A DNA stretch of 64,000 nt from contig NZ_CP154260.1 in NCBI RefSeq assembly GCF_039545795.1, forward strand, positions 3,849,001 to 3,913,000, read 5' to 3'. Positions 12,200 through 16,023 of the stretch are shown here, piece after piece; positions within the stretch are counted from its first letter, which is position 1, and every line of letters begins with the position of its first letter. Both the position numbers and the translations under genes were made by a program. The stretch comes from Chitinophaga niabensis. GTDB taxonomy: Bacteria; Bacteroidota; Bacteroidia; Chitinophagales; Chitinophagaceae. A model generated the notes under the pieces. The model was not told the origin of the DNA and did no database searches. It saw only the letters and a list, made by a program, of their open reading frames with translations.

Positions 12200-14245
12200 T
12201 TAAGCAGCCTCTACCCTCAAAGTGGTGTCAGCAGGTGAAACAAAAAGAGAAATGATCTGGGAATTGATCTCCGGGATGAACGTAACGGACTCTCGGTTAT
12301 CACAGAATACAGGAGCATAGATCTCGTAATGCTGGGAAAGAGTATTTAGGACATCGAGACCGGCGAGCAGTTTGGCGGCAGTATTGAGGGTCTTGTATGG
12401 AACATCTTTGTACTCACAGACACAGGTATCTGCGATTCCTCCATTAACCTGCTGGTCGAAGAGACGGAATGAAACATACCGGAAGCGATCATTTACCCTT
12501 TTCTCAAGTATGTCCATTTTTGCCCTGTTATAGGCCTCGATCTCAAACTCCTTCTGTTCAATGGTGGCGATTTCCTGAGCAGTTGCGGATTCTTCCTTTT
12601 TAAGTTGGGCAATCCGTAATTCCGTCTTCTCAATGGTTGCCTTCCTGGATAACTTCTCCTTAAGTTCATCCAGTTCTTCATTCAGGGTAGCTTTCTCAGC
12701 CTTCTCCTTTTCAAATGTCACAGGCTCCCCCAGCGCGTCAGTCTGAATTTTAACCAGCTTTCTCAGTTCTTCTATTTCATCCAGAAGGTTCAGAGCATCC
12801 CCGTTTTTATCCATAAGAACGGTAACTGCAGCTTCAATATCTATGGACGATGCGTTCTTCGCAAGCTCCTTAATGTCCGCGAGTTGTTGGGCCAGTGCAG
12901 GAACTTTTTCCTTGGTTACTTTTAATTGGGTGCCCAGGTCTTCAATCGCTTGCTCTAAGGACTGCAGGGTTTTCTCTTCCTGCGCCTTTTGCTCCTTGCT
13001 GCGATCGGACTTACGTACTTCATCCGCTTTGCGGGACGCAACTCCTTCATTGAAGTTCTTTAACAGCCCCGCTTTTGTTTTAACAACATCATCAACTGGC
13101 AGTTGTTGCTTGCATGATGGACAAACGCAACCGTTTTCATCGAAAACAAACTTTTCTGCATTGATCTTCTCCCACTGTTCCCGGTTGCCCTGGATCAGCA
13201 TGTCCAGCCTTTCAATTTCAGTTTTACACCTTTCCACCATTTCATCCTTGGATGTGATCTCCTTTTCTAACCTGGAAACCTCCCGATTATTGGAATCAAT
13301 CTGGTTTTGAACAGAGGCAATCTCAGATGTTTTGCCATTTTGGTTTTCAAGCAAACCGCTTTTGATCTTACTCCGGATTCCATCCAAGAGCGTGTTCTTC
13401 AGGAAAATCTCATTATTCAAAGCCGTGATGCCCTTTTGCTTTTCCTGTAATCCCTTTGAATAGTCAGCCAGCTGCTGGTCTATATCCTCCACACGCGCCT
13501 TCTTAGCTTTTATCTGTTTGGCCAGGTCGTCCCAATCCAAAACATCCGGCAATCCACGTTTTGCCTCGTCAATTCGTGGAAGGTACTGTTCGGAATCTTT
13601 CTTCAAACCAGCTTTCTTAGCACCCAGCTGCTTTTTGTAATCGTCCAGGTCCTTGTATTTACCACTTCCGAGAACTTCCCTTAAATGGGAGAAGTCTGTC
13701 ACCTTGGAGTTCATCGAGGTAAAAATGTCCTCGTTGGTTATCTCCCCAGCAATATCCACCAGGCCTCGGCGCTGGTCCTTCCAGTCAAGAGAATTGAAGT
13801 AGTGGGGGTTGGTGAGAAGTTTGATCAGGCTGGGAGAGATCATTGCATCTACATCTGCCTGATACTCGGTTAAGGACACGGGAACATCATTCACATAGTA
13901 TTCGGTATAATGACCTTTGAATACCTTCTGTGACTGGCCCTTCGGCTTTTGCCAGTCCTCCATGTAAACCCTCTTCAGTTTTAGCTCCCGGTTGTTTACC
14001 AGGAAGACACCCTCCACTTCATGAGACTGTGCGTTCAGTTCTTTACGGAGGGTGTTTTTGATCTCATAGTCCTTACGGTCAAATTCATCCTTGCCGGTAA
14101 GTAACCAGAAAAACGCAGACAGGATCGTAGATTTGCCTGACTCGTTAGCCCCACTGATTTTAGTGGACTGTCCAAACTGAATCAGGAGATCCGTTATACC
14201 CTTGAAATTTCTCAAAGAAAGTGTTTGTAAATAAATTGTTTTCAT
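12200..14245 (-). CDS. Rad50/SbcC-like ATPase with zinc hook
   Basis: A 681-residue protein. The N-terminal lobe has Walker A GANESGKST (about 33-41) inside the Rad50/RecF-type strand LRNFKGITDL. Two long coiled-coil arms meet at a CPSCKQQLP zinc hook near residue 374. The C-terminal lobe has LLAGLDVLNTLSQ, then YAPVFCDNRESV, where a canonical Walker B LDEP is replaced by a CDNRE form. Such degenerate ATPases are common beside phage recT. Rad50-type proteins open DNA ends for a partner nuclease; here the MBL-fold protein two genes on is the natural candidate. The small acidic gene and a hairpin lie just upstream. Confidence 0.85.
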   Translation of the reverse strand: MKTIYLQTLSLRNFKGITDLLIQFGQSTKISGANESGKSTILSAFFWLLTGKDEFDRKDYEIKNTLRKELNAQSHEVEGVFLVNNRELKLKRVYMEDWQKPKGQSQKVFKGHYTEYYVNDVPVSLTEYQADVDAMISPSLIKLLTNPHYFNSLDWKDQRRGLVDIAGEITNEDIFTSMNSKVTDFSHLREVLGSGKYKDLDDYKKQLGAKKAGLKKDSEQYLPRIDEAKRGLPDVLDWDDLAKQIKAKKARVEDIDQQLADYSKGLQEKQKGITALNNEIFLKNTLLDGIRSKIKSGLLENQNGKTSEIASVQNQIDSNNREVSRLEKEITSKDEMVERCKTEIERLDMLIQGNREQWEKINAEKFVFDENGCVCPSCKQQLPVDDVVKTKAGLLKNFNEGVASRKADEVRKSDRSKEQKAQEEKTLQSLEQAIEDLGTQLKVTKEKVPALAQQLADIKELAKNASSIDIEAAVTVLMDKNGDALNLLDEIEELRKLVKIQTDALGEPVTFEKEKAEKATLNEELDELKEKLSRKATIEKTELRIAQLKKEESATAQEIATIEQKEFEIEAYNRAKMDILEKRVNDRFRYVSFRLFDQQVNGGIADTCVCEYKDVPYKTLNTAAKLLAGLDVLNTLSQHYEIYAPVFCDNRESVTFIPEINSQIISLFVSPADTTLRVEAA

Positions 14246-14283
14246 AACTTTATAGTGTATTCAAATTTTAAGTTTTCTTTAAG

Positions 14284-14309
14284 AAGGCCCGGTGATCAGA
14301 CCGGGCCTT
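14284..14309. terminator. Strong hairpin with T runs, bidirectional terminator-like
   Basis: A perfect 9-bp inverted repeat (AAGGCCCGG at 14284-14292 with CCGGGCCTT at 14301-14309) around an 8-nt loop. The + side is followed by TTTCTTTT. On the minus strand the repeat is followed by a weaker CTT-rich tail. It separates the acidic small gene from the Rad50-like gene and may attenuate leftward transcription. Confidence 0.6.
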
Positions 14310-14334
14310 TCTTTTACCCGCTAGTTTCTGTCAA

Positions 14335-14451
14335 CTATTCGCTGGCATCACTGCCAGCTTCACCTTGTTCAGCATTGACTGCTTCAGCAACGTTTTCGGT
14401 TGCGTCTTCGGCGCCCTGGCCGTCTTTTACTTCTGGATCGAAATTGTCCAT
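14335..14451 (-). CDS. Tiny acidic protein, 38 residues
   Basis: A 38-residue frame with an ATG at 14451: MDNFDPEVKDG then a run rich in A, E, D and G, ending GSDASE. It has about twelve acidic residues and one basic one. Very acidic small phage proteins can mimic DNA and block host nucleases or other DNA-binding proteins. That is only a hypothesis, as low-complexity acidic frames also arise by chance. The frame lies between the 69-residue gene and a strong hairpin and is in the operon direction. Confidence 0.45.
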   Translation of the reverse strand: MDNFDPEVKDGQGAEDATENVAEAVNAEQGEAGSDASE

Positions 14452-14487
14452 GTTCGCTTTTGGTTTTATTGTTAAAGAATAGAAAAC

Positions 14488-14697
14488 TTATTTCTTAAAA
14501 TTGTAAGTCTCCGTTGTGTTTAATACCCCGGCTGAATCCAGTTCTTTGCCAGAACGAATGAAGAATCCCTCACTCTGAAGAAGGCGGTAGTCATCTGACC
14601 TCATAATTACGGGCACACACCTGCCGTCAGCATACAAATTGCATTGAACTGTGTTTCCCTCTATTTTTTTAACATCTAATTGCATCCATTTTTCCAT
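14488..14697 (-). CDS. Small hypothetical phage protein after the ncRNA
   Basis: A 69-residue protein (MEKWMQLDVKKIEGN...) predicted to be a small beta-rich domain: LDVKKIEGNTVQCNLYADG then CVPVIMRSDDYRLLQSEG. It has no known motif. It starts 12 bp beyond the T run that ends the candidate structured RNA, so it is either transcribed by read-through or from a promoter inside that region. Confidence 0.55.
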   Translation of the reverse strand: MEKWMQLDVKKIEGNTVQCNLYADGRCVPVIMRSDDYRLLQSEGFFIRSGKELDSAGVLNTTETYNFKK

Positions 14698-14709
14698 AAA
14701 CCAATTTTT

Positions 14710-14735
14710 AAAAAGTGGCCGCTACTTTCCCGGCC
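14710..14735 (-). terminator. Rho-independent terminator of the candidate ncRNA
   Basis: On the minus strand, a GGCCG/CGGCC stem (14735-14731 with 14721-14717) closes a 9-nt loop and is followed two bases later by TTTTT (14714-14710). The + strand has no T run on the other side. It fixes the minus strand as the sense strand of the structured block upstream. Confidence 0.7.
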
Positions 14736-14880
14736 TGGTCAGAAGGATTTCAACGTTTAGTGTTTAATAATCGCGTCCGTGCTGTCGTATCCCTATTCTT
14801 TCCAGCATGTCACCGGTTACACCTGATCACCGGAAGTTTACACGTAATCTACTTTCCTTCGTTCCTCGTGTTGGTTGCGT

Positions 14881-14912
14881 TGTGGAGGCCGGGGAATCGA
14901 ACCCTCAAGACC
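14881..14912 (-). other. tRNA T-arm-like segment inside the candidate ncRNA
   Basis: On the minus strand, GGGTTCGATTCCCC followed by GGCCTCCACA looks like a tRNA T loop and 3' acceptor end. No full cloverleaf can be drawn: the T stem is only 3 bp, and the best 5' partner (TGGAG, about 55 nt upstream) leaves no D or anticodon arm. It is either a tRNA mimic within the RNA or a captured tRNA fragment. Confidence 0.45.
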
Positions 14913-15660
14913 CTGATGGACTAAGAGAAAAACTCCATTGTCTGCCCCCATTTGCCGGTCTTCCCCGGCTGCCACTCTTGGTAAAGCCCAACATTAGATA
15001 AGCTGTGCAATATTCGCTCCCGGCTCCTGTAGTGCGTGAATACTGCGACAGTAACACTACATTATGGGATCCCGTCTTTCCGGCAGTCCGAGGTGGCTCT
15101 CCCTCAGTCACCACTTTACGCCTCAAATGGTTTAACGGGTCGCTTCAGTCCTACCATAACCGTAGCAGTTGACTCTGGCATGCTACTAACCATTGCGCCT
15201 ATTCGCCATCAAAGGCCACGGTAAGACGTCCCTGTAAAGGTTTGTGTCCGATAGGCTCCCGCTTCATTATTTTAGTCTGGTGGATAGCGAACACCAGTAA
15301 CCGCGCCGCACTCGCCGCCCGATGATCAGGTTTCTGGGTACTTGCCCTACAATCCTGCAACTATCTTTAAAACCGCCGTAGTTTTTCCCCGGCTTTAGCT
15401 ACCAGCCGTCACATCACATTCGTTAGAATGGCTGGTTATTTCTGCGGTTCCAATTCATCCGGGCAGCGATATGATATTTCATGCTCGCTTTAGGGGCTGA
15501 CTACCCTCCTTATAAAGTATCCCGGTGCGGGTAAGGCGTTCGACACCGCTCTTCGCTGATCAGGCGCCGCACTCCTTTATATGCGTAACCGGGAATAAGG
15601 TTGGGGCTGTCCAGAGTACTCTCGCCTCCTTTCGGTGACCAGGGATTTGTCCTGCCCCAA

Positions 15661-15829
15661 TATTTTCAAAGAACTTCTATCACTTTCAAAAGGCACCAGC
15701 CATAAACATGGCCGGTACGCCGCTTATAAATTCCACGTTATGAAAAAACTTCAGGGAATCCGGCACCTGGAAAAGTGCCGGAGTTTTATTGTTCTTTTTT
15801 TCAACCCCAAATACTGTAACAATAAATTT
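15661..15829 (-). promoter_or_regulatory. Leader region with two hairpins before the ncRNA
   Basis: A 169-bp non-coding stretch. One hairpin pairs CCGGCAC with GTGCCGG (15754-15782); its T-rich tail lies on the + side. A second, on the minus strand at about 15694-15717, has a 9-bp stem with one G-U pair and a 4-nt loop, then GCCTTTTG, and could be a weak terminator or processing site. Just before the first RNA stem the minus strand has GTTCTTTG, a partial match to the -7 box TAnnTTTG, so a dedicated promoter is possible but not proven. Confidence 0.35.
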
Positions 15830-15937
15830 CTATTTGAATCGGTTCTTATCCCTTTTGTAGTCTCGGACCTGCAAGTATGCTGCATAACCAAGAATACTGA
15901 GTAAGGAACCTATAATAACTAAACCTAAAAGTGACAT
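15830..15937 (-). CDS. Tiny single-span membrane protein, 35 residues
   Basis: An ATG at 15937 opens a 35-residue frame. Residues 2-21 are one hydrophobic helix (SLLGLVIIGSLLSILGYAAY), followed by a positively charged tail (QVRDYKRDKNRFK), the charge pattern of an N-out/C-in small membrane peptide. It is in operon direction between the 139-residue membrane protein and the candidate ncRNA. It may be a lysis, holin-like or superinfection peptide. No family is recognised. Confidence 0.55.
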   Translation of the reverse strand: MSLLGLVIIGSLLSILGYAAYLQVRDYKRDKNRFK

Positions 15938-16023
15938 ACCTTAAATTTTCCCAGGAAAGAGATCTCACCTGGCTGTTTACCTTTCAAACCATATCCTATG
16001 AAAAACCTTACCTTTTGATCAGC

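Follow-up and report, generated by a model that had tools for sequence, protein, structure and literature searches.

A candidate large modular RNA with a tRNA/tmRNA-like domain in an early prophage operon of Chitinophaga niabensis

The locus and its relatives

The window analysed here is a stretch of 64,000 nucleotides (nt) from Chitinophaga niabensis (NZ_CP154260.1, positions 3,849,001 to 3,913,000). On its minus strand, a block of 951 nt (14710..15660) was studied as a proposed structured RNA, for which an earlier note had suggested a giant phage RNA. As that note had stated, the block is part of a leftward early prophage operon. The order is NinB-like gene, MBL-fold hydrolase, RecT, SbcC-like ATPase (12200..14245, minus strand; PHROG 77, Pfam AAA_23), an open reading frame (ORF) of 69 amino acids (aa; 14488..14697, minus strand) and then the block. 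This ORF lies directly downstream of the RNA; it had no Pfam match, and a 55%-identical reading frame was found in the prophage region L290 (loci and genomes are given by our L and G numbers). The block itself comprises a boxA-like motif, a closing helix (P1), internal modules, hairpin M1, a tRNA-like domain without D-arm, hairpin K and the terminal hairpin M2 with TTTTT. The domain, which resembles transfer RNA (tRNA) and transfer-messenger RNA (tmRNA), had been missed before, as had the boxA-like motif and both M hairpins. The ends of the approx. 950-nt RNA, from P1 to the terminal T-run, and its full-length transcription are inferred.

No supported gene was found within the block, in agreement with the earlier note. 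The block shows no coding signal: its longest ORF has 73 aa, and 230 of 300 shuffles contained one at least as long (shuffle mean 92). None of the seven ORFs of at least 40 aa wholly inside the block matched Pfam at E ≤ 0.1. A plus-strand ORF of 89 aa running over the block end (15635-15904) gave a match to Pfam SPA below the cut-off (14.1 bits vs 22, E 0.05). ORFs of 45 to 73 aa are present, and some of them gave weak tblastn matches (best E 6.7e-4, L287) to related loci, in which the RNA itself is kept. Still, the shuffles, frame-breaking indels and the lack of Pfam matches make a coding role for small phage proteins highly improbable.

Two other Chitinophaga prophages, L093 and L254/L287, carry a partly homologous RNA, in both cases immediately upstream of an SbcC-like gene of 60-61% identity; a small ORF lies between RNA and gene in all three prophages. 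L093 is a contig of C. chungangae; a stretch of 1070 bases is 100% identical between it and G400, a genome from the genus to which the window belongs. L093 is colinear with both the 5' and the 3' part of the block and is the sole homologue having modules of both ends. L254 (the L287 region) is without the middle and has the leader described below, a 70-nt piece, the tRNA-like domain, K and M2. Related modular stretches of non-coding DNA precede different genes in three more prophage regions of Chitinophaga, L256 (G460), L257 (G418) and L258 (G404). Several helices common to the window and related loci differ in sequence while the pairing persists, some of the compared stems being hand-picked. 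When the block was compared by BLAST with 50,697 phage records, three gave matches at E ≤ 1, all on M1.

The SbcC-like protein matched nine of 394 family genomes, the window's own genome included. For its wider relatives, 80 of 131 loci from a genome scan and 80 of at least 563 from a viral scan were kept; the two collections overlap within the resulting 160 loci. A T-arm with five paired positions was found on the same strand, up to 2.2 kb upstream, in 21 of these 160 loci, compared to 6 upstream on the opposite strand and 5 and 6 downstream on the two strands. Of the eight loci in family genomes other than the window's own, four (L065, L067, L070, L071) have tRNAs or T-arms upstream. True tRNAs, as called by ARAGORN, precede the SbcC-like gene at L065, L071, L173, L192, L194 and L204.

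Modules of the block

The tRNA-like domain (14882..14950, minus strand) has a total length of 69 nt. It can form a 7-bp acceptor (UGGGGGC/GCCUCCA), a 5-bp arm (AUGGA/UCCAU) whose loop has 13 nt, and a T-arm (T-loop UUCGAUU); a D-arm is absent. The tmRNA model RF00023 scored it with 17 bits (genome-wide E 2.2e-4; gathering score 47 bits). At E ≤ 0.001, this model matched only the true tmRNA (126 bits) and the window domain in the whole genome. The homologous domain of L254 reached 31.1 bits (E 5e-9). The arm is paired in three sequences that have no stem in common. The copies of L254 and L093 fold to the expected shape with z -3.2 and z -1.1, respectively. The window copy favours another fold and may therefore be worn or dependent on its context. 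ARAGORN called neither a tRNA nor a tmRNA in the window, and RF00005 gave no match there; ARAGORN also missed the true tmRNA of the host, so that its negative result counts for little. L093 carries two tRNA-like elements at the place of the window's one. In L254, a hairpin like the anticodon arm of tRNA-Tyr (GCTGGACTGTAAATCCAGC) lies between K and M2 (1430-1490), with a D-arm-like piece and no T-arm.

The block could alternatively be a decaying tRNA island, i.e. remnants of phage tRNA and tmRNA genes with processing hairpins that are co-transcribed and have neither a joint fold nor a function as one RNA. The true tRNAs preceding the SbcC-like gene at six loci, the window domain's departure from its energy minimum and the differing number of tRNA-like elements in L093 would all fit such an origin. 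However, M2, K, Z and the leader are parts unrelated to tRNA and are still kept with compensatory changes. We consider this explanation possible but doubtful.

Hairpin M1 (14950..14977, minus strand; GUGGCAG-CCGG-GGAAGA-CCGG-CAAAU) adjoins the domain. By BLAST, 24 nt were found exactly in Xanthomonas phage Rb1 (E 0.08), inside a 2.6-kb gap without annotated genes, and 23 nt in Aeromonas phage pAEv1818, represented by two records (E 0.3). An exact 22-mer occurs in two IMG/VR contigs (L006 and L007), in both followed by a tRNA-like element, and a longer query also matched Pseudomonas phage KLEP17-4. In the latter, one pair is compensated, which 99 of 500 shuffles reached as well; M1 thus rests more on sequence recurrence than on covariation. 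Hairpin K and CGGACGCGAUU (14769..14813, minus strand) are located on the other side of the domain, with UGCUG-GAAAGAAUAGGGAUACGA-CAGCA at 14780-14807. Two of its five pairs are changed on both sides in L254 and L256.

The terminal hairpin M2 (14710..14744, minus strand) reads UGACCAG-GCCG-GGAAAGUAG-CGGC-CA with CUUUUU. The hairpin at 14717-14735, followed by AC and the TTTTT of 14710-14714, is the block end described in the earlier note. The inner 16-mer was present in 21 IMG/VR stretches and preceded by GACCAG in 16 of them. A degenerate scan gave 35 stretches; the stem is fully paired in 19, among them near-identical groups of seven and three, and not in the other 16. Stem variants comprise CCG/CGG, UCG/CGA, GCCG/CGGC, UCCG/CGGA and CCCG/CGGG. 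For 16 distinct copies, selected for full stem pairing, the covariation score and five doubly changed cells were reached by none of 500 shuffles. No convincing match was found in isolate phages or plasmids.

In IMG/VR contigs (L039-L059, L073, L077, L079, L092), M2 stands at varied places. In seven of 14 loci examined, the distance to the start of the next ORF downstream on the same strand is 45 to 66 nt, and in eight of these 14 a mechanically called ORF of at least 60 aa overlaps the hairpin. The former count, the T-run after M2 and the position before the SbcC-like gene with a small ORF in between would agree with a very long 5' leader controlling the 69-aa ORF and the SbcC-like gene by attenuation or antitermination. 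On the other hand, 950 nt is long for a leader, of which a tRNA-like domain would be an unusual part. The related RNAs of L256-L258 lie in prophage regions without an SbcC-like gene nearby, and the overlapping ORFs do not fit either. Such a leader is therefore regarded as improbable.

At the 5' side, a leader element, TTTTTCATAACGTGGAA with a hairpin (15688..15747, minus strand), is common to L093, L254, L173, L256 and L258. Its helix covaries, with one of eight pairs broken in three of six rows. The 17-mer TTTTTCATAACGTGGAA (15731-15747; further loci L343-L352) also occurs elsewhere on Chitinophaga chromosomes: in a family sample of 294 genomes, all six Chitinophaga genomes had one or two copies and the 288 others none. 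Outside the prophage, a GC-rich hairpin and then a T-run often follow. Most of its 49 IMG/VR matches instead have a putatively coding context in common, and approx. seven come with a hairpin.

The boxA-like motif AGTTCTTTGAAAATATTG (15658..15675, minus strand) has the form AGTTCTTTGA..ATTG. The pattern GTTCTTTGAN{1,7}ATTG had three matches in the genome and none for a reversed control. Similar motifs, picked by eye, precede tRNA-like or RNA units in related loci. The motif may be a boxA of the type known from leaders of ribosomal RNA (rRNA). P1 (15601..15660, minus strand; UUGGGGC/GCCCCAA) closes a domain right after the motif, and helices of unrelated sequence follow the motif at other loci. 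Further inside, hairpin Z and AAAACUACGGCG (15374..15410, minus strand) contain CGGCU-GGUAGCUAA-AGCCG at 15390-15408. The corresponding hairpin in L093 is CGUCU..AGACG, which is one compensatory pair. Module Y, GCCUAUCG...AAUAGGCGCAAU (15192..15256, minus strand), is common to L093 (24 nt, 83%, E 0.026); its helix is identical there and gives no covariation evidence.

Another long non-coding stretch was observed in Pseudomonas-type and Leptolyngbya phages (L006:3640-4330 and L007:8500-9600, both minus strand, L061:2650-3418 and L062:2880-3560). Its 5' part includes a block containing GACAGCT. Three of the four stretches have M1, and a stem encloses an exchangeable module (tRNA-like or tRNA). 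True tRNAs are found in L006, L007 and L062, which also have a common 3' part. The stretch precedes a gene for the DNA-packaging protein gp3 (Pfam GP3_package) in L006 and L007, and terminase genes lie downstream in L062. L007 contains an inserted HNH-like ORF of 132 aa (match below the cut-off). Apart from tRNA, no Rfam family matched the four stretches. An element of Pseudomonas phage Orimi01 (L060:3001-3105) is 77% identical over approx. 105 nt to the tRNA-like element of L006 and has a longer closing stem. In phage Rb1 (L004:3313-3618, PQ569993.1), a 2.6-kb gap that lacks annotated genes holds a permuted tmRNA (RF04321, 103.4 bits, E 1.5e-19) next to a tRNA-Phe. The minus strand of L259 (G418, ~1500-1670) has an isolated tRNA-Leu-like element, interrupted by a long insertion and uncalled by ARAGORN, in surroundings that look like a bacterial chromosome and not like a prophage.

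Chance tests and favoured reading

The earlier note had relied on an ordered chain of perfect helices that random DNA would not give. This argument did not hold. At most 28 perfect hairpins without mutual overlap (stem at least 4, loop up to 60) fit into the block, compared to 27.5 ± 2.1 in 60 dinucleotide shuffles, 30 of which reached 28. Under four further settings, the observed value was reached by 14, 16, 36 and 15 of 60 shuffles. The folding energy was z -1.32 on the minus strand (one of 20 shuffles equally good) and z -1.02 on the plus strand (five of 20). Helix count and folding energy taken alone, the block is thus ordinary. The helix UUGGGGC/GCCCCAA at 15601-15660 is present in the sequence; by itself it is not significant (77 of 200 shuffles).

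Further results weigh, like the count and the minus-strand energy, against a structured RNA or one of its parts. For P1, four of 12 sites picked by eye, the window among them, were matched by 71 to 92 of 200 shuffles, and both L093 sites by 178 and 193 of 200. The helix of this type in L070 and at one L071 site is a plain acceptor stem. In the leader, the count of pairs changed on both sides was reached by 100 of 500 shuffles; for M2, with its rows selected as described, 61 of 500 did so. The single compensated pair of M1 in KLEP17-4 belongs here as well. In L254 alone, the preferred partner of the K 5' strand is a different one, and the K folds of L254 and L256 were no better than shuffles. 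The tRNA-like fold of the window (-17.1 kcal/mol) is not the energy minimum (-24.4 kcal/mol), and its T-stem has three good pairs. Homologues are few, and strong M2 copies were found in three of 79 Chitinophaga genomes. A search of the genome returned no small-subunit rRNA and AGTTCTTTGACATNNTG was absent, which leaves boxA as a putative assignment.

The claim of a large structured minus-strand phage RNA was therefore retained in part: it is supported by comparison (syntenic partial homologues at one locus and helices kept with compensatory changes in several cases), together with the tRNA-island association and the lack of coding signal, and not by the helix chain. With the K fold of L254 and the shuffle count of M1 taken into account, the minus strand of 14710-15660, judged from its sequence, probably encodes a real structured non-coding RNA. 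For the joint statement of one modular RNA with boxA antitermination and a tRNA/tmRNA mimic, we see the chances as even.

According to this favoured reading, a modular structured RNA of approx. 950 nt would be made leftward along with the early recombination operon. The boxA-like motif ahead of the first helix probably recruits Nus-factor antitermination, by which RNA polymerase could traverse a long untranslated folded RNA. The RNA would start at P1, bear exchangeable hairpin modules, present the D-armless domain near its 3' end between M1 and K, and end at M2 with the T-run. During early lytic growth, the domain could serve as mimic or scaffold for proteins handling tRNA or tmRNA, with RNase P, the CCA-adding enzyme, EF-Tu, SmpB and tRNA-cutting defence enzymes as candidate partners. 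That the function is indeed such mimicry, engaging the translation or tRNA-processing machinery early in infection, is a tentative proposal.

More speculatively, the block might represent a new class: large modular phage RNAs around a tmRNA-derived, tag-less tRNA mimic under boxA antitermination, with M1, M2 and K as exchangeable modules traded across bacterial phyla, that capture or divert host tRNA, trans-translation or tRNA-cleaving defence machinery. The function of the giant phage RNAs GOLLD and ROOL is unknown. If true, such a class, having a recognisable mimic of tRNA or tmRNA together with an antitermination-like signal, would offer a direct, testable handle on the binding partners of giant RNAs and would extend their reach to Chitinophaga. 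It would also suggest that distant phages have functional RNA modules in common, located in the non-coding gaps of their tRNA islands.

Comparison with known RNAs

The boxA-like motif with a helix immediately after it presumably resembles the boxA and closing stem of rRNA leaders. It differs in standing before a phage RNA. Among known RNAs, the domain scores best with tmRNA (RF00023; permuted form RF04321). The L254 arm AGCAGAGG/CCUCUGUU, at what we take to be the P2 position of tmRNA, weakly matches the host tmRNA (24 nt, 83%, E 0.06; 19 nt, 84%, E 1.2). In contrast to tmRNA, the 69-nt domain is too short for a tag ORF and pseudoknots, encodes no CCA and stays below the gathering score of 47 bits.

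Rfam scans with 4227 families, presumably including a ROOL model, gave no family match in the window at gathering scores. The covariance check for GOLLD and ROOL that the earlier note had suggested found nothing in a lax scan of the block (14200-16000, E ≤ 10) or in eight related loci. In a scan of the complete genome at E ≤ 10, GOLLD was not found either, and none of 14 control genomes passed its cut-off. A positive control was thus missing from all these scans. Membership in either family is hence unsupported by these scans. In the open-access literature covered (titles and beginnings of abstracts, with few preprints and no subscription journals), no account of an RNA of this kind was recognised for this group.

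According to PMC12286853, GOLLD is carried by phages and prophages, with many members exceeding 800 nt, and frequently lies close to tRNA islands, sometimes with tRNAs in a linker; ROOL is a large phage RNA of unknown function that is also often found near tRNA islands. The block resembles GOLLD (RF02032) in being phage-borne, in exceeding 800 nt as a predicted transcript and in the T-arms that are enriched ahead of the SbcC-like gene at related loci, and it resembles ROOL in size, phage origin and tRNA-island association. These likenesses would also suit a divergent RNA of either type forming an RNA-only cage, such as the 14-mer of GOLLD, a reading that is nevertheless very unlikely given the Rfam results and the conserved M1 and M2 loops, which by inspection are not self-complementary. 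The block differs from ROOL by the lack of a match in the Rfam scans and from GOLLD by its D-armless domain, which scores as tmRNA, and by the boxA-like motif before P1. It is filed here as a new variant of the large phage RNAs, belonging to neither GOLLD nor ROOL.
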